A stretch of 60,024 nucleotides of DNA, from contig NZ_JAUCGJ010000028.1 of the NCBI RefSeq assembly GCF_030378065.1, positions 1 through 60,024 on the forward strand, written 5' to 3'. The DNA is from Candidatus Venteria ishoeyi (lineage in GTDB: Bacteria; Pseudomonadota; Gammaproteobacteria; Beggiatoales; Beggiatoaceae). A program made the position numbers and the translations under genes. Under the pieces are notes generated by a model. It was not told the DNA's origin, made no database searches, and worked only from the letters and a program-made list of their open reading frames with translations. This document shows, piece after piece, positions 37,429-58,190 of the stretch; position 1 is the first letter of the stretch, and every line of letters begins with the position of its first letter.

Positions 37429-39201
37429 ATGAAACTTCGATACAAACCTTTAAACGCAGTCATCACGCTGATATTCACCATTTCTATGTACAGCGCTATT
37501 TTCGCTCAAACACCACCGCAACCAACGATTGATGGGTGCAGTGGATTAGACACTGGAGACAGTTGCAGTTTTGTCACACCCAACGGCACAGAAAGCGGTT
37601 TCTGTACTATGGCGGACACGGTATTATTTTGCACCCCAAACCCCGCTTCGAGTGCTGGTGTTACTGCCACTGCGGTACCTGATGATATTGGCACGATGAT
37701 AGGCACTACCGGCGGCAGTCTGCCGGATACGGGGCAGACTTACTGTTATGATGCCAATGGCAGCGCCACTACCTGCCCCGTTTCAGGTGCCGCTTTTTAT
37801 GGTCAGGATGCGCAGTATCAGGGGAATGCCTTGAGTTACACTAATAACGGTGATGGCACTGTCAGTGATAATATCAGCGGTTTGATGTGGCAGCAGACAA
37901 CAGACATAAATGGCGATGGTGTTATCAACAGCAGCGACAAACTGAGCCTTGGTAACGCACAAAGTTATTGCGAAAGTCTGAATCAGGGTGGGCATAGCGA
38001 CTGGTGGCTGCCTGACATCAAGCAAATGTATTCGTTGATTGATTTTGATGGTCAAGATGTCAGCAGTTACAGCGGTACCGATACCAGCGGCCTGATTCCT
38101 TTCATCGACACTCAGTATTTCACCTTTGGCTATGGCGATACGGCTGCTGATGAACGTATCATTGATGCCCAATATGCATCTTCCACCCAGTACGTCAGCA
38201 CCACCATGAATGGTGATACAACGATGTTTGGAGTAAATTTTGCCGATGGGCGTATCAAAGGTTATGGCATAGCACTTCACGGTCAAGATAAAACTTTTTA
38301 TGTTCAATGTGTCCGTGGCAACAGTGCTTATGGTCAAAATAGTTTTACCGACAATGGTGATGCAACCATCAGCGACAAGGCCAGTGGTTTGATGTGGGCG
38401 CAAAATGATAACGGCAGTGGATTAAGCTGGGAAGATGCGCTGGCTTGGGTGACGCAGCAAAATGCTGCTGCCTATTTAGGTTATAGCGACTGGCGCTTGC
38501 CCAACATCAAAGAGCTGCAAAGTCTGGTAGATTATACCCGTTCGCCGGACACCACAGGCTCCGCCGCCATTGACCCGTTGTTCAACGCCAGCGCGATTAG
38601 CAATGAAGCGGGACAGAGCGACTATGCTTATTACTGGAGTAGCACCACCCATATTAATAGTGGCCCGGTACCTGGCGCAAATGCCGCATATATCAGTTTT
38701 GGGCGTGCCATCGGTTCCATGAACAGTGGCAGTACCTGGATAGATGTTCACGGCGCAGGTGCGCAGCGCAGTGACCCAAAAACTGGTGATGCGGCTGATT
38801 ATCCCCAAAGCCACGGCCCACAGGGTGATGCCCAACGAGTTTTCAATTATACCCGTTTGGTGCGCACAGATGGCGGCACCGACAGTTCCCAATGTGCCGT
38901 TTTCAATGCCACAACCACACCCCAGCTTAATTTACCCTGTGTGGATGTGAGCGGTACACTGTACAGTGTAGGTATGAATATGGTTAATGCAACGGATCTG
39001 CTTTTCGCGGTGGATGCCAGCAGTCTGCAAGCACTGAATACGACAGCAGGTGGGGATTGTGCTGCTTTTCCTTACGGTTCACAAAGTCGTTTGCGCTTAA
39101 ACTGTGTAGATGTCGATGGCAGCAAGTTGTGGGCGGAGTTAACGTATATTCCGGGCATAACGGATATTGAGTTTGAGCTGGTGGATTACGGCAGTCATTA
39201 G
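37429..39201 (+). CDS. Secreted protein with two DUF1566 (Lcl) domains
   Basis: A 590-residue protein with a signal peptide (LITLIF-type core ending AIFAQ). It has two DUF1566/Lcl C-type-lectin-like domains: the first around 130-300 (DNISGLMWQQTTD ... WWLPDIKQMYSLIDFDG ... FYVQCVRG), the second around 305-480 (DKASGLMWAQNDNGSGLSWEDALAW ... DWRLPNIKELQSLVDYTR ... TRLVRTDGG). A C-terminal beta region carries paired Cys. Lcl domains are found in adhesins. The start has a good AAGGAG ribosome site. Unlike the caspase-DUF1566 protein at 56748, its C terminus has no hypervariable NNC codon run. Confidence 0.85.
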   Translation: MKLRYKPLNAVITLIFTISMYSAIFAQTPPQPTIDGCSGLDTGDSCSFVTPNGTESGFCTMADTVLFCTPNPASSAGVTATAVPDDIGTMIGTTGGSLPDTGQTYCYDANGSATTCPVSGAAFYGQDAQYQGNALSYTNNGDGTVSDNISGLMWQQTTDINGDGVINSSDKLSLGNAQSYCESLNQGGHSDWWLPDIKQMYSLIDFDGQDVSSYSGTDTSGLIPFIDTQYFTFGYGDTAADERIIDAQYASSTQYVSTTMNGDTTMFGVNFADGRIKGYGIALHGQDKTFYVQCVRGNSAYGQNSFTDNGDATISDKASGLMWAQNDNGSGLSWEDALAWVTQQNAAAYLGYSDWRLPNIKELQSLVDYTRSPDTTGSAAIDPLFNASAISNEAGQSDYAYYWSSTTHINSGPVPGANAAYISFGRAIGSMNSGSTWIDVHGAGAQRSDPKTGDAADYPQSHGPQGDAQRVFNYTRLVRTDGGTDSSQCAVFNATTTPQLNLPCVDVSGTLYSVGMNMVNATDLLFAVDASSLQALNTTAGGDCAAFPYGSQSRLRLNCVDVDGSKLWAELTYIPGITDIEFELVDYGSH

Positions 39202-50433: not shown

Positions 50434-50955
50434 ATGAACCCTATGGATACATTACAGGAACATCATTTAGGCGAAACCCCATTGCCGATTATGTGCGATG
50501 ATCCCGACCAGGGACCACAAATTGCCGCGCACATGATAGGGCAAACGGAACATTATCTGGACATACTCAGTTATGATTTTGAGCCGTTTTTATACCATAA
50601 TGAACTGTGTTTTGAAGCCTTTGAAACCCTGGCTTTGTCCAGTCGCCACAGTCGTATCCGGGTATTAATTTATGAGCCGCGCCAGGTTGCGCAGCGCGGT
50701 CACAGCATTTTAACCTTAGGCCAGCGTTTAAGTAGTCGCTTCCAGTTTCGCCGTCCGGCAGAACTCACCCAAAGATACCCGGACAGTTTTTTAATTGCGG
50801 ATAATATCGGTATCATCCATCGCCCGTATCAGGATAGCCGTAACTTTTCCGCGAATTTTCAGGATGGCGAGCTTGCAAGGGAATTAGGCAGCCGTTTTCA
50901 ACGCCTGTGGGATGAAGCTGAAGATGATCCCTGGCTGCGGCGGCTTGTACTTTAG
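50434..50955 (+). CDS. Small PLD-like protein lacking HKD motifs (DUF7931-like)
   Basis: A 173-residue protein. Its tail (SFLIADNIGIIHRPYQDSRNFSANFQDGELARELGSRFQRLWDEA) resembles the second half of phospholipase D-fold domains, but neither HxKxxxxD motif is present, so catalysis is not expected. Similar domains occur at the end of some acetyltransferase-like proteins. It sits between rarA and the giant helicase and its stop overlaps the GTG of the helicase by one base, so it may be a binding partner. Confidence 0.65.
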   Translation: MNPMDTLQEHHLGETPLPIMCDDPDQGPQIAAHMIGQTEHYLDILSYDFEPFLYHNELCFEAFETLALSSRHSRIRVLIYEPRQVAQRGHSILTLGQRLSSRFQFRRPAELTQRYPDSFLIADNIGIIHRPYQDSRNFSANFQDGELARELGSRFQRLWDEAEDDPWLRRLVL

Positions 50956-53900
50956 TGAAGTTAGATAAGCTACAACAACGCCTGAATGCAGCGAGTTTTT
51001 ACAGCCCTTTGTTGCGTCTGCGCCTGGGTGGCAAACCCGGACAAGCCCGTTTATTGGATTGTCAACAGTTTGAAGCCCAGCAAACCGGCCTGGGGCAAGC
51101 TTTACTGGATACCATTATTTCCGGTAAGGGTCGCTGGCAGTGGAATTGTCCGGATCAAAAACTCTACGCGCAAATTAATCACCGAATTTATCGGCAGGCA
51201 GAGCTGGCGCAACGGGAAACTGGCGTACACGCGCTGTGGCTGGGCTACCCTCTCTTTTCTGTGGCAGATGTTGCTGCCCCAGGTAGCAAGTCAGCTTCCC
51301 CAAAAAAACAAGCCCTGTTAGCGCCGATATTCCTGTTTCCGGTACAACTGCAAACCAGCTTGCAACACCAGGGGCGTTTAACGCTGCAACGCCCAGCCAC
51401 GCTGGGCAATGCACGATTAAACCCTTTACTGGCGCACCGGTTGCGGCATTTGTTGGGCATTGATTTTCCTGAACTGCCCTTAAATCCCGATGCTGAAGCC
51501 ATTGCGCAGTTTTTGACCGACTTCTGTCAGCGTTTTCACGATGCACCCCGGTTTGATGCTGAGGCGGATTTATGCCCGATTCCCGCGCTGGATAACTTGC
51601 CGGAACAAGTGCAATTACATCCCGCCGCAGTCCTGGGTTATTTTCATACCCCCAATGCCGCCTTATTATCTGATTTAGAGGTGTTAGAAAAACAAATCCA
51701 TGAGACTCAAGCTCAGAACCAGGACTTACCCTTATTACGTTTGCTCACCGATAAACCCAAGGCCTTAGCAACACCCAATCAGCAAAAAATCAGTGAAGCC
51801 GATTCCTGGTTGGTGTATCCCGCTGATTTTTCACAAACGGAAGCGGTTGCCAAGGCCAGACAGGCACCGGGACTGGTCATTCACGGCCCACCCGGCACGG
51901 GTAAATCCCAGACCATTGTTAATATTATCGCCGATGCCCTGGCACGGCGCGAAACCGTGTTAATGATTTGCCAGAAACAAGCGGCATTGCAGGTGGTGCG
52001 GGAGCGTCTGCAACAAGCGGGGCTGGCAGATTTATGTATGCAGGTGCAGGATGCCGACAGCGAGCGTTTAAACGTATTTCGCAGTCTGCGCGCACAGATT
52101 GACAGCTTGCCGGACACGCTCACTGAGTTGGATATACGCCCCCGTTTGCAATTGGCCCAGCAAATCACGCGCCTGGAAAGCCAACTGGAAAAACATACAT
52201 GTGCGGTGCAGCAAAGACAGGAAAACAGTGGCTTATCCTATAGAGAAATTCTGGCTGAAATTGCAGCACTGGAAACAACATTTCCCGGCATACGCCCTTT
52301 GCAGGGTCTACAAACCCGACTGGCGCAGGTAAATAACCACGAATTAGAAGTGCTCAGCGAGCAGTTGTTAAAACTGGGGCATTTATTCGGTCAGGCCACG
52401 CCGTTGGAAAACCCCTGGCATCTACGCAAAGCTTTACGCAAAGCCATTCCCGAGAGCGAAGTGCGCGCGCAACTGCAACGCCTGCGCACCCTCAATGCCC
52501 GCCATTTGCATTTGCAGGAAGACGGCCTGCCAGTGGTATTATTACCGGAAAACCCGCAAGCACTGGGAGAGAAAAATACTAAAGACAATAATCTGGATTA
52601 TTTTGCCGGTTTTCTGGAAAAATTACGCAATACCAGTCTGCGCATCTTAAAAAATCCACAAGCCAGCAAAGAGCAGGCGCACAACCCAACGCTGCAAGCC
52701 TGGTGGTCAGCTTTGCGCGGTGCAACGCCTTTGCTGCTGCTGCAACACCAACAGCGTTGCGCCAACACGGCCTCATTGCTGGAACAACTGGATCAGCATC
52801 CAATTGACAGTGATTTATTGAATAGTGCCAATCCGCTGGCAAAATACATCCCCAGCGCAGACATGGCAAAATGCCTGCAACACACCCGGTATTTTTTATC
52901 TTATCAGGCAAAACGCTGGCGTTTTATTTTGCCCCGTTGGTACACTGCAACGCGGACTTTACAAAAATTACATCAGCAAGCGGAGAATGGTGACAGCTTA
53001 CTGCAAGCCGTGCAAAACCTGCATCGCTATCTGGAAAATCTCAGCCTGCACGCAGAACTGGTGTGCCTGTGTCAAACTTTAGTACCAGGGCGCGGTTGTA
53101 CCTTGCGCAACCCACTGGCACAACAGGCTTTTTTACGTGCTACCTTGATTGCTTTTGAGCAGGCGCAGTGGTTATATCAGCAGGAACAGCAACAACAATG
53201 GCTGCAACCTTTATTTGATCAACTGGAAAAACAAAGCCAGGGTGATACCCAGGCTGATTTTGAGCAAACTCTGGAACAGGCAACCCGCCGCCTGCCTATG
53301 GCAAAAACGCTATTAAACGCGCTGGATGACTTGCAGCACTGGTTACAGCCGCAAGCCCTGCAACTACCGCAGCAACAAGTACGTGCTGGTGAAAGTCTGG
53401 AACCCTGGCTGGACAGCCTGGAACAAGGCTTTGCCCAGATGCCCGCATTACAGAGCCTGGAAAAAGATCGCAAACGCCACGGCGGATTATTACGTGCACT
53501 GCTGGAAACCCTGGAAGACTACGAACAACAACGCAGACAAAACCCGGACAATAAAAAACAAGCCCTGCCACAACCACCGGAAAACTTAAATGGCGCAACA
53601 GGACGCGCTTTTTACGGGCGCTGGTGGGATGCTTTGTTACGCCGCAGCATGTTACAAGTCTGGCGTTTGCAGTGTGAACAGGATAATCCCAGCCTGCGTG
53701 ATCTCACGCCAGAAGCCCACGCCGATTTGGTGCAACGACTGCAAGATGCGCTGCATGAAAAACAACGACAAGAAAGCCCGTTAATGCTTCAGCAATGGCA
53801 AAAACGCCAGTTGCCGCTACGCAACCGCCCCTGGAAACGCCTGTTTCAACTGCGCAGTTCGCGCCAGAATCAGGCCAAGCGCCTGCGAGAAGCCGTACAT

Positions 53901-55265
53901 GAAGGCTTGGCTGAAGGCTTATTGGATTTACGCCCCTGCTGGTTAAGCAACCCCGACACCGCCGCGCAGATTTTTCCCTTGCAGGCGGGTTTGTTTGATT
54001 TAGTGATTTTTGACGAAGCCTCACAATGCCCACTGGAACAGGCCGTGCCGGTCTTATATCGTGGCAAGCGCCTAGTGGTCTGCGGCGATGAAAAGCAACT
54101 GCCACCCACCGGATTTTTTAATTCCCGTCAGGATGCAAATCAAGACAATGGCGATGATGATGAAATCACCCAAAGCTGGCAGGAAGACCTGCTGCAAACC
54201 AGTATTGGCATTCTGCCGGAAACCCGTCTGCGGGTGCATTACCGCAGCCAGAACCCGGCGTTGATTCAGTTCAGCAACCGCGCATTTTATCATGATTTAT
54301 TGGAAATTCCCCCGGCAGCGCATCAAGCATCAAACCGGATACCCATTGAATACCAGTTTATTGACGGTATCTATCAGCAGCGGTGCAATGAACAGGAAGC
54401 CGAAGCGGTTTTGAATCAGTTGCAAGTGCTATGGCAGCAAGCACATTACAGTGTCGGCGTGGTCACGTTTAATCAGGTGCAGCGGGACTTAATCGAAGAC
54501 AAACTGGCGCAGCGTTGCCAGAATAACCGCGACTTTGCCAAACACTATCAGCAACAGCTTAAAGCAGCGGATAATCAAAGCCTGTTTATTAAAAACCTGG
54601 AAAACGTGCAGGGTGACGAGCGCGATGCCTTGATTTTCAGCACCACCTTCGGCCCGGATGCCAGCGGTCGCGTACAGCGCCGCTTTGGGCCGCTGGGCAG
54701 CGCAGGTGGCGAGCGGCGCTTGAATGTTGCGATTACCCGCGCCAAAACCCACATCACCGTCATTTCCAGCCTGCCCCCGGAATCCCTGCCGGAATTACGC
54801 AATTATGCCTTAAGCGGCGAGTTAAAACCCGCGCATTATTTATCACTGTATCTGCATTACGCGCAGGGCGTGGCGCAACAGGAAACAGAACAAACCACGC
54901 ATTTATTAAGCCTGCTGGGTCAGCAGCAAACCAGCCTCGCCGCGCAGGCTTCCGGCGGCGAAGCGCAAAAACTGCTGGCAGATGTGCAACAGAAACTGGA
55001 ACAACACGGTTATGTCTGTGAACAACACGTAGGCAGCGGTGGCCTGCAAATTGATTTAGCGGTCAAAAATGCGGCGGGTGATTATAAACTGGGTCTGCTC
55101 TGTGACGGTGGCAACTGGTTTAACCACCGCAGTAACCGGATGCAAACCGTGTGGCGGCAACAACTGCTGCAAGCGCGGGGCTGGCGTTTATACGTGCTCT
55201 GGAGCCAACGCTGGTGGCTGGCACAGGATGCGGAACTGAAAAAGATTTTGGCGTGTTTGAGTTAA
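50955..55265 (+). CDS. Giant SF1 helicase (AAA_11/AAA_12) with degenerate REase-like tail
   Basis: A 1436-residue protein, GTG start coupled to the preceding stop. The helicase has Walker A VIHGPPGTGKSQT near residue 308, a long helical insertion (about 390-960), then FDEASQCPLEQAVPVL, VVCGDEKQLPPTGFF, RVHYRSQNPALIQFSN, NVQGDERDALIFS and RLNVAITRAK. The C-terminal ~100 residues (GSGGLQIDLAVKN ... LGLLCDGGNW ... GWRLYVLWSQRWWL) match the DUF559/Vsr-like nuclease of the same family, but the usual E before CDG is Leu. Related helicase-nuclease proteins are known as single-gene defence factors (Hhe); whether this one defends is inference. Confidence 0.85.
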   Translation: MKLDKLQQRLNAASFYSPLLRLRLGGKPGQARLLDCQQFEAQQTGLGQALLDTIISGKGRWQWNCPDQKLYAQINHRIYRQAELAQRETGVHALWLGYPLFSVADVAAPGSKSASPKKQALLAPIFLFPVQLQTSLQHQGRLTLQRPATLGNARLNPLLAHRLRHLLGIDFPELPLNPDAEAIAQFLTDFCQRFHDAPRFDAEADLCPIPALDNLPEQVQLHPAAVLGYFHTPNAALLSDLEVLEKQIHETQAQNQDLPLLRLLTDKPKALATPNQQKISEADSWLVYPADFSQTEAVAKARQAPGLVIHGPPGTGKSQTIVNIIADALARRETVLMICQKQAALQVVRERLQQAGLADLCMQVQDADSERLNVFRSLRAQIDSLPDTLTELDIRPRLQLAQQITRLESQLEKHTCAVQQRQENSGLSYREILAEIAALETTFPGIRPLQGLQTRLAQVNNHELEVLSEQLLKLGHLFGQATPLENPWHLRKALRKAIPESEVRAQLQRLRTLNARHLHLQEDGLPVVLLPENPQALGEKNTKDNNLDYFAGFLEKLRNTSLRILKNPQASKEQAHNPTLQAWWSALRGATPLLLLQHQQRCANTASLLEQLDQHPIDSDLLNSANPLAKYIPSADMAKCLQHTRYFLSYQAKRWRFILPRWYTATRTLQKLHQQAENGDSLLQAVQNLHRYLENLSLHAELVCLCQTLVPGRGCTLRNPLAQQAFLRATLIAFEQAQWLYQQEQQQQWLQPLFDQLEKQSQGDTQADFEQTLEQATRRLPMAKTLLNALDDLQHWLQPQALQLPQQQVRAGESLEPWLDSLEQGFAQMPALQSLEKDRKRHGGLLRALLETLEDYEQQRRQNPDNKKQALPQPPENLNGATGRAFYGRWWDALLRRSMLQVWRLQCEQDNPSLRDLTPEAHADLVQRLQDALHEKQRQESPLMLQQWQKRQLPLRNRPWKRLFQLRSSRQNQAKRLREAVHEGLAEGLLDLRPCWLSNPDTAAQIFPLQAGLFDLVIFDEASQCPLEQAVPVLYRGKRLVVCGDEKQLPPTGFFNSRQDANQDNGDDDEITQSWQEDLLQTSIGILPETRLRVHYRSQNPALIQFSNRAFYHDLLEIPPAAHQASNRIPIEYQFIDGIYQQRCNEQEAEAVLNQLQVLWQQAHYSVGVVTFNQVQRDLIEDKLAQRCQNNRDFAKHYQQQLKAADNQSLFIKNLENVQGDERDALIFSTTFGPDASGRVQRRFGPLGSAGGERRLNVAITRAKTHITVISSLPPESLPELRNYALSGELKPAHYLSLYLHYAQGVAQQETEQTTHLLSLLGQQQTSLAAQASGGEAQKLLADVQQKLEQHGYVCEQHVGSGGLQIDLAVKNAAGDYKLGLLCDGGNWFNHRSNRMQTVWRQQLLQARGWRLYVLWSQRWWLAQDAELKKILACLS

Positions 55266-56692: not shown

Positions 56693-56714
56693 TTCCCACA
56701 TGGAAACGTGGGAA
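56693..56714. terminator. Hairpin downstream of the caspase-DUF1566 gene
   Basis: TTCCCAC / GTGGGAA stem with an 8-base loop, 34 bases past the caspase gene stop. It may terminate transcription; a hairpin at this place is also what diversity-generating retroelements carry next to their variable region. Confidence 0.5.
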
Positions 56715-56747
56715 CGAGAGAAGAGGAAAAACAGCAAAAAGCAAAGG

Positions 56748-58190
56748 TCACTGTCCGTCGCGCACCAGGCGAACGTGCCGGTTGCTGCCACGGTAGTCGT
56801 TGCCGTCGTTTCCATTGCTGAAGTGCACGTACCAGGCGCCGTCCGAATCGGCGGCATAGGGCGAGCCTGACCAGACATCATATGGCGTATTAGGAAATAC
56901 ACTTTGTACGATGGTGGGGTTTTCATGGTCTGTTTCAGGTGATCCGGCACACCCCCAATCAAAGTTATTTGGCCGCTCCTGCGCTATATATTCCTCCAGC
57001 CCTGGCTTACCCTGATTAAAATAATCCAGCTTGCCATTGCTACAATACACCAGGCTGCGTAACTCTTGTATCGTGGGTATACGCCAGTCCTGATATTCGG
57101 CAAATGAGGCAGTTTGTTGTTTTGCCTTTTTCCACTCCATCGCTTTCTCTGCCCCCTGACAAGTCGCCCCATCCCAACGCTGCCCCACAACACAACGCAT
57201 CCACATCAACCCGGTTTTTGTATCCACAGCCGTGCCATTGGCATAAGCCACATAATGTTTAATACGCTGCCCTTGTGCTTGAGAAGGTGTACGGGTTGTT
57301 TCCGGCACTGCTTGTGGCTGCGCTGATTGCTGTTCCTGCTTTTCCTGTACCAGAGCAATCGCACCACACCCCGCCATACAATAATCCCCAATCAAATCAT
57401 CTTCATTTTTAGGTTTTTGGATTTCCACCCGCTTACCGGCGCGTTTATCCTTTTGTGTCTGCAAAAATACCGCATCGCGCACCAGTTTCACCACCCGGCT
57501 GATGGGCTGATTGGCCTGTTGTTTTAAGGTTTGCAGCAAATAGCGGGTATACAGGCTGTTGCGCTCGCGTGGTCTGCCCCAGGCAATCTGGTTGCTGCCA
57601 GCGGCATAAGACACCAACGCACCGTCAGGCTGCATCAGCGCAAACCCCGCTGCACCCATGCCTTTTTTGCCGGATTCGGCAATGCGGTTGCGGCAGGCAT
57701 CCAAAAACATCAGCTTGACCTTAGCCGGGCTGTTTTCCAGCTTGCCCAGTATCCAGTGGGCGTTAAGCCCGTAGGTCTGCAAATCCACCCCGTCGGCATA
57801 GGCGCGGTTAGCGGCGGCGAGATAGTTGTAATAATCTCCGGTTTCCCATACCTGCGCACCGTGACCGGAATAATAAAACAATACCGTATCCCCGGCGGCA
57901 ATGCGGTAGCGTGGTGGACATTTGCGGCGGTTAGATTCCAGCCCGATCAGGCAGTTTACCGCATATTCCATCTGGCTTTTGCCAGCATCTTTGAGCAAAT
58001 AAACCTGAAAACCATAAGATGCCAGCAGGTCTTTCATGTCTTTGGCATCTTCGTGGGGATTGGGCAACGGGCCGAATAAATTACGCTGGCTGATTTGCGG
58101 ATAATTTTCATTACCGATGACCAGCGCGATTTGCTTGGCGGCGCTCAAGGGGGTGAATAACAGCAGGTATAAAAGTATTAGTTTTTTCAT
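56748..58190 (-). CDS. Secreted caspase-like (C14) protease with DUF1566 C terminus, possible DGR target
   Basis: A 480-residue protein with a signal peptide (ILLYLLLFTPLSAA) and a caspase-like domain (about 20-240) with catalytic His110 (YYSGHG) and Cys166 (LDACRN). A Gln/Pro linker precedes a DUF1566/Lcl domain (about 310-480; TGLMWMRC, DWRIPTIQELRSLVYCSNG). The last ~40 residues (from WSGSPYAADS to HVRLVRDGQ) are encoded by visibly GC-rich DNA. From Tyr445 to Asn470, 18 of 26 codons end in C and can be derived from AAC by changing A only. This is the pattern of a diversity-generating retroelement variable region; caspase and Lcl domains are known hosts. No reverse transcriptase or template repeat lies in the window. 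Confidence 0.85.
   Translation of the reverse strand: MKKLILLYLLLFTPLSAAKQIALVIGNENYPQISQRNLFGPLPNPHEDAKDMKDLLASYGFQVYLLKDAGKSQMEYAVNCLIGLESNRRKCPPRYRIAAGDTVLFYYSGHGAQVWETGDYYNYLAAANRAYADGVDLQTYGLNAHWILGKLENSPAKVKLMFLDACRNRIAESGKKGMGAAGFALMQPDGALVSYAAGSNQIAWGRPRERNSLYTRYLLQTLKQQANQPISRVVKLVRDAVFLQTQKDKRAGKRVEIQKPKNEDDLIGDYCMAGCGAIALVQEKQEQQSAQPQAVPETTRTPSQAQGQRIKHYVAYANGTAVDTKTGLMWMRCVVGQRWDGATCQGAEKAMEWKKAKQQTASFAEYQDWRIPTIQELRSLVYCSNGKLDYFNQGKPGLEEYIAQERPNNFDWGCAGSPETDHENPTIVQSVFPNTPYDVWSGSPYAADSDGAWYVHFSNGNDGNDYRGSNRHVRLVRDGQ
56751..56880 (-). other. Candidate DGR variable region
   Basis: The end of the caspase-DUF1566 gene. It is GC-rich compared with neighbouring coding DNA and dominated by NNC codons (GAC, GGC, AAC, TAC, AGC, GCC, CAC, TTC) at positions expected to be solvent-exposed in a C-type lectin fold. 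It ends with a conserved-looking HVRLVR segment. Inferred, pending a matching template repeat. Confidence 0.55.

Follow-up and report, generated by a model that had tools for sequence, protein, structure and literature searches.

The 60,024-nucleotide stretch of Candidatus Venteria ishoeyi DNA analysed here (contig NZ_JAUCGJ010000028.1, C40 below; hereafter the window) holds a caspase gene whose 3' end is rich in NNC codons. A sequence-only reading of the window had proposed that this end is the variable repeat (VR) of a diversity-generating retroelement (DGR), with the reverse transcriptase (RT) lying elsewhere. This raises the question of whether the caspase is indeed rewritten by a DGR and, if it is, what a protease with a variable tip might do for the cell.

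The caspase gene and its variable end

Pfam assigned the protein a Peptidase_C14 domain at residues 20-246 (E 3.7e-27) and an Lcl_C domain at residues 319-477. The dyad residues were found as His110 in YYSGHG and Cys166 in LDACR, and the model of the full-length protein (mean pLDDT 83) matched paracaspase (MALT1) and caspase structures. These data support a caspase fold with a His-Cys dyad, proteolysis itself being predicted. The N-terminus resembles a signal peptide as judged by eye, and the protein thus looks exported.

The modelled C-terminal domain (56751-57287; pLDDT 85.5, pTM 0.81) was best matched, using VIA-align, by the C-terminal domain of Legionella Lcl (Z 12.1, 3.3 Å, 115 residues). 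Lcl is a surface adhesin, of which this domain is a part. The DGR proteins TvpA (2y3c, Z 8.0) and Mtd (1yu3, Z 7.8) also matched, at the level of many C-type lectins. It is because of these VIA-align matches that we speak of a C-type-lectin fold; a search of solved structures with the sequence of the Lcl_C domain gave no match at E 0.01, and Foldseek with the tip model gave none at E 0.001 (best 8q4e, E 0.0066). The variable residues are on the last strands and loops, in a confident part of the model, and the VR is at the extreme 3' end of the predicted C-type-lectin-fold domain.

The composition of this end was as the sequence-only reading had described it. Between Tyr445 and Asn470, 18 of the 26 codons are NNC, a density reached by none of the 26-codon stretches in the remainder of the gene (0/405) or in six other ORFs of the window (0/2899). 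The repeat has 65% GC, compared with 52% for the caspase gene and 46% for the window, and the HVRLVR noted beside the stop opens HVRLVRDGQ, residues 472-480, which ends at the stop codon.

Elsewhere in the window, a 590-aa protein (37429-39201, + strand) has two Lcl_C matches, and its DNA gave no match to the repeat in the genome search described below. A possible defence gene at 50955-55265 (+ strand) encodes a helicase of 1436 aa (AAA_11/AAA_12) that also matches REase_MTES_1575 and, weakly, DUF4011. Genes for OmpA, Uma2 and PDDEXK_2 proteins lie near the caspase and this helicase. None of the four genes scanned near the caspase (OmpA, Uma2, PDDEXK_2 and helicase-REase) is mainly MoxR, vWA, VMAP or STAND, an nSTAND3 match in the helicase-REase protein being sub-threshold.

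A template in trans and adenine-only changes

The genome of the organism (4.4 Mb, 115 contigs, 98.8% complete; G000 in the table) was searched with window positions 56745-56900. Five strong matches were obtained: besides the query, contig C27 had three and contig C5 one. The next match had an E value of 0.6. One of the C27 matches is the template, in which a stop breaks the Lcl_C frame; as the sequence-only reading had anticipated, it is near-identical to the caspase repeat, has A at the varying sites and overlaps the ORF of a DGR-type RT. The other matches, like the caspase, are VRs.

Mismatches with the template were compared over 113 bases, comprising 38 template adenines, and assessed with a hypergeometric test. 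All 17 mismatches of the caspase VR fell at template adenines (p = 5e-10), as did all 27 of the C5 VR (p 1e-17), 18 of 19 in the upstream C27 gene (VRup) and 22 of 23 in the downstream one (VRdn). Pooled over the four VRs, this amounts to 84/86, both exceptions being in the C27 targets. One further adenine-derived change in the caspase, at 56753, lies at the edge of the repeat and brings the count to 18/18 over 126 bases. We prefer the figure of 17/17 because an A-to-C change at this edge is common to all four VRs; it is probably a fixed boundary difference.

The template also clarified the origin of the NNC codons. That each of them can be derived from AAC, as had been pointed out, is trivially true; in the template, 13 of the 18 do read AAC, and the remaining five (GCC three times, TTC and GAC) are constant codons, the same there. 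Among the 13 codons changed in the caspase, the change at S449 is synonymous. Over 126 bases, 79 of the 89 substituted adenines of the four VRs are at codon positions 1 and 2, and 59 of the 89 substitutions are A to G. By computation, the template permits about 10^22 protein variants. The invariant 3' part of the repeat (Table 1) occurs in exactly five copies in the genome, even when three mismatches are allowed.

Table 1. Positions of the features discussed (window coordinates unless a contig is named; G000 is the organism's own genome)
Feature	Position	Strand	Remarks
Caspase gene, DGR target	56748..58190	-	480 aa; Peptidase_C14–Lcl_C (DUF1566) fusion, domains by Pfam
Lcl_C / C-type-lectin-fold domain bearing the variable region	56751..57236	-	Pfam and structure model
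VR of DGR-1	56749..56874	-	Template lies in trans, G000:C27:113251-113379
Span of the 17 adenine-derived changes	56778..56849	-	From codon 448 to 471, 13 codons affected
Invariant 3' part of the repeat, 23 bases	56755..56777	-	Same in the template and all four VRs
Segment just 3' of the repeat	56734..56754	-	About 20 bases, includes the stop
Hairpin after the caspase	56693..56714	-	Seven pairs and, past a G-T mismatch, an eighth; loop of 4 nt
DGR-1 template	C27:113251-113379		Overlaps the 5' end of the RT ORF; A-rich copy
DGR-2 locus	G000:C10:51000-63500		Avd, RT, template and three caspase-FGE targets on both sides of the RT
DGR-2 template	C10:59943-60060

All three other targets of this element, DGR-1, are Lcl_C (DUF1566) proteins, in which Pfam found no protease domain: an fn3-Lcl_C protein of 1057 aa, a protein of 163 aa with Lcl_C alone, and the C5 protein, which is 371 aa long. 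The genome has 14 Lcl_C matches, of which four are the VR genes and one is the template; the other Lcl_C genes (on C36, C42, C4 and others) are not DGR-1 targets. A caspase-domain match on C22 was hit in neither the DGR-1 nor the DGR-2 template search, so that at least one caspase match in the genome is not a target.

The machinery of DGR-1

The locus on C27 comprises, in this order, the VR-bearing fn3-Lcl_C protein, an Avd-like ORF, the template, the RT and the VR-bearing 163-aa protein. Template, Avd-like ORF, RT and the two local VRs all lie within about 3 kb, and the remote targets are the caspase on C40 and the 371-aa protein on C5.

DGR-type RTs are recognized by the motif [LIV]GxxxSQ together with YxDD. 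The reading frame of the DGR-1 RT (525 aa) contains IGNLTSQ and YVDD, scores above the cut-off for RVT_1 and hits a family of reverse transcriptases in PHROG (8.5e-98). The Avd-like ORF matches the PHROG family 'Avd protein of DGR' (3.4e-16), but it scores 29.7 bits with Pfam bAvd, where the cut-off is 40, and 41.8 bits with NCBIfam Avd, where it is 80. There are four RVT_1 matches in the genome, two of which, on C27 and C10, carry [LIV]GxxxSQ, both as IGNLTSQ with YVDD. The RTs on C45 and C86 were considered as drivers and rejected: the SQ motif is missing, the two sequences reading QGSPLSP and QGGIVSP.

The DGR-1 template contains the sole ATG that lies between the stop preceding the RT and the RT's conserved start; phages Magia and Cruim01 likewise have their template inside or across the annotated RT start.

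The adenine-only mismatches, and the RT and Avd-like ORF beside the template, thus bear out the proposal that the caspase is a DGR target with its RT outside the window, and we consider it highly probable that this DGR is DGR-1.

Downstream signals

The sequence-only reading had pointed to a hairpin after the caspase gene, hairpins near a VR being known to aid homing. It is present, 33 bases past the stop, with a TTCC loop on the sense strand and GGAA on the other, so that its GRNA-type loop is on the opposite strand, and about 0.4% of the window's 150-base pieces contain a structure of that kind. Any role in homing is putative: the stems differ from one DGR-1 VR to the next, with no hairpin present at all four targets, and we rejected it as a shared DGR-1 signal, the three sister VRs being without it. 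When 2 mismatches are allowed, the genome has a single copy of the hairpin, which is therefore not a dispersed repeat at that stringency, and the folding energy after the DGR-1 VRs is unremarkable (z 0.2 to -1.7). The segment immediately 3' of the repeat is near-identical in the four VRs (one C/G difference), and the template diverges after its first few bases. This segment is a candidate homing-initiation site.

After the VRs of a second element, DGR-2, folding is strong (z -3.4 to -4.8). Two stems lie downstream of each of them. The first, at a distance of 41-42 bases, has 11-12 bp and a 3-nt loop; in one copy its arms are different and can nevertheless pair. The second, at 78-79 bases, is GC-rich, with 7-8 bp and a loop of GGTA or GATA. 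Both stems are kept at 3/3 VRs, and the DGR-2 template has no stem of 6 bp or more downstream. In the part of PMC3240598 used here, phage DGR hairpins are described as 7-10-bp GC-rich stems with a GRNA loop, 4-34 bases from the VR; the second DGR-2 stem fits them in stem and loop, though it lies farther from the VR.

A second DGR on another contig

DGR-2 is only distantly related to DGR-1, and its Avd is above the NCBIfam cut-off. Its VRs have 18/18, 18/18 and 16/16 mismatches at template adenines (52/52 over a 114-base region anchored within the repeat; a longer BLAST alignment gives 18/19 for two of them). Each VR ends a caspase-FGE ORF, of 572, 662 and 582 aa from stop to stop, and the caspase region of the first target is 53% identical to that of the window caspase. 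As read from these sequences, the genome holds four caspases with putatively variable C-type-lectin-fold tips, supplied by two DGR lineages, and all four appear exported from the look of their N-termini.

Distribution in relatives and phages

None of the 57 relatives compared is from the same genus, and a contig scan of relatives with the caspase alone matched no relative. The DGR-1 RT was matched in 13 of 57 genomes at 1e-10 and in 6 of 369 genomes of the class at 1e-40, the organism's own genome being included in both counts. A repeat pair with a strong A (or T) bias was listed in 10 of the 18 relatives' loci; since the listing admitted only pairs having 75% or more of their mismatches at A (or T), its ratios are selected, and extra short pairs in L122 and L127, outside target ORFs, were left uncounted. 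Ten ORFs from those loci were scanned and all of them (10/10) match FGE-sulfatase. Two relatives, G032 and G011, have VR-bearing caspase-FGE fusions, and in G016 (contig C112) a caspase-FGE ORF is separated from its own VR-bearing end. Caspase-FGE DGR targets recur in two other genera of the family, perhaps in a third. Two relatives have kinase-FGE targets (L118:4836-7931 and L124:6530-9388), which resemble those reported in cyanobacteria.

The caspase-Lcl_C and Lcl_C proteins of G014, G009, G004 and G018 have NNC-rich ends (L111-L115), which are possible fossil VRs. The RVT_1 search gave no match in G004 or G018; G009 and G014 have RTs.

In a tree of 28 RTs, that of DGR-2 falls inside the family's own group. 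That of DGR-1 groups with three gammaproteobacterial RTs (G109, G150 and G094; 96/89), next to five phage RTs (100/100), and the RTs with which it groups have adenine-biased repeat pairs in their loci. DGR-1 is therefore of a lineage different from the family's DGRs. We considered that it came straight from a phage, since a 25-RT tree joined it to the five phage DGRs (100/100); the addition of the three gammaproteobacterial RTs moved DGR-1 to them, and we keep a phage source as a candidate only. The phage RTs were chosen from top matches, which makes the sampling biased, and several branches of the tree are long.

Adenine-biased repeat pairs were found in 7/7 phage loci scanned with the same 75% filter (BPP-1 and BalMu-1 being outside the scan), and 6/6 VR-bearing proteins from four of the five phages that group near DGR-1 have Lcl_C matches below the Pfam cut-off. 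The phage DGRs of the Magia type (Magia, Haboob, Cruim01, LPPA56 and QDWS) have RTs that share about 36-40% identity with that of DGR-1. Their template is inside or overlapping the RT gene, or within about 90 bases upstream of it, and they share with DGR-1 adenine-biased VRs in proteins with weak Lcl_C matches. They differ in that these proteins are small and the VRs in cis; no caspase match was found in the six target proteins scanned. The DGR of the Bordetella phage BPP-1 resembles DGR-1 in its order (target, small gene, template, RT). Its RT is 29% identical to that of DGR-1 and 35% to that of DGR-2, its target is in cis, and the GC-rich hairpin with a GRNA loop reported after its VR in the consulted part of PMC3240598 has its counterpart here in DGR-2.

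G150, a gammaproteobacterium from a different family, carries an RT resembling that of DGR-1 (44-47% identity) together with 33 Lcl_C matches spread over many contigs. Among 15 listed same-genome comparisons with its template (weak cross-genome pairs being ignored), mismatches at adenines made up at least 75% in eight, 70-74% in two and 46-58% in five; G150 thus apparently holds a large set of remote targets. Its Lcl_C matches are often tandem pairs with adenine-biased VRs (loci L262, L273, L286, L291 and L293-L296).

Discussion

We propose that the C27 template is transcribed and then copied by its own RT, random bases being placed opposite adenines, and that the resulting cDNA, guided by the 23 invariant bases, would overwrite the 3' end of the caspase gene. 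With the template on C27 and the caspase on a separate contig, homing would take place in trans. Rewriting would cover 15 residues encoded by AAC or AAT in the template, plus a few others, on the C-type-lectin-fold tip, and would leave the scaffold and the protease intact. Because AAC and AAT cannot become stops, it would do so without truncation at those codons. Judging from this one genome, the caspase VR would be a target to this day. The most likely role of the variable tip would then be that of a ligand sensor, whose binding would switch on, or direct, the caspase in the cell envelope. For this last step alone, argued from the architecture and from the four such caspases served by two DGRs, we see about even odds.

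A bolder reading, put forward tentatively and with a rough probability of 0.35, is that of an arsenal: exported caspases, the tips of which would be continually rewritten by two distantly related DGRs on Lcl_C and FGE scaffolds, would provide anticipatory recognition, so that binding of a phage, a rival or kin outside the inner membrane triggers proteolysis, the caspase-FGE version being kept in several genera of this Thiotrichales-like family. The best argument for selection acting on the coupling of variable recognition to a caspase is that two DGR lineages with two scaffolds reach one effector type.

The tip might instead be an adhesin-like or substrate-docking surface, directed at cells, prey or phage, rather than an on/off sensor of the protease. 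The adhesin origin of the nearest fold and the lack of a Pfam protease domain in the other three DGR-1 targets speak for this. Yet diversified tips on four caspases, produced by two DGRs on two scaffolds, suggest that the protease matters, and we find a mere docking surface somewhat unlikely.

We also considered the possibility that the caspase VR is a fossil, which DGR-1 would once have rewritten and which would no longer be a live target. More template adenines are unaltered in it (21/38) than in any of the other three VRs, no hairpin is common to the DGR-1 targets, and relatives have Lcl_C paralogues with NNC-rich ends, two of these relatives (G004 and G018) giving no RVT_1 match. If the copy had been drifting, however, changes at C, G and T should have accumulated, and there is no non-adenine difference over 113 bases. 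Furthermore, the segment downstream of the repeat is near-identical despite the separate contig, and RT, template and target are all intact as reading frames or repeats; loss of activity is therefore improbable.

That there is no DGR at all, and that paralogous Lcl_C domains of biased composition resemble each other by chance, can practically be dismissed: N, D, G, Y and S are frequently abundant at the Lcl_C ends of genomes unrelated to this one, but here the mismatches are almost purely at template adenines (p 1.5e-9 to 1.4e-17 across the VRs) and an RT and an Avd-like ORF adjoin the template.

Caspase-bearing DGR targets are already known. Vallota-Eastman et al. (2020, PMC7517822; partial text) described cyanobacterial DGR variable proteins with orthocaspase-like N-termini, which share with the present proteins the fusion of a caspase-type protease to a C-terminal DGR-diversified C-type-lectin domain, remote targets and the occurrence of kinase-bearing targets. 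In contrast to that set, as far as the partial text goes, the host here is a gammaproteobacterium, the window caspase has an Lcl_C (DUF1566) tip, and the caspases of a single genome are targets of two DGRs that are only distantly related. The N-termini here look exported, whereas the cyanobacterial targets are given there as mostly cytosolic, some being membrane or secreted.

The DGRs of Thiohalocapsa PB-PSB1 diversify putative antigen sensors, according to the portion of Dore et al. (2024, PMC10907252) on which we draw. Likenesses comprise several DGRs per genome, candidate in-trans targets, FGE-type tips and death-type effectors. In PB-PSB1, a DGR 2 target has a fused caspase-like CHAT domain and a DGR 5 target a signal peptide, and some clade 5D targets have N-terminal peptidases. 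The PB-PSB1 targets in that portion are mainly STAND, vWA and MoxR-associated, whereas the effector here is a Peptidase_C14 domain fused to the tip, in one case on the Lcl_C scaffold.

In the literature searched we found neither an Lcl_C-tipped caspase target nor two DGR lineages that serve caspases of the same genome, and both features appear to be new; in the open literature, no paper joining DGR with 'peptidase C14' or with 'Thiotrichales' came up. Caspase-FGE fusions were counted in 2012 (33 sequences), the FGE part being discussed, in the passages seen of PMC3501461, as a formylglycine-modifying enzyme. In five caspase-FGE proteins, three in this genome and two in relatives, the FGE domain bears an adenine-biased variable repeat, which has a bearing on those fusions.

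As to the purpose of cellular DGRs, two lineages that would supply tips to caspases make the idea of a sensor coupled to a protease concrete and testable, as the target is a single polypeptide and the template predicts which of its residues vary.
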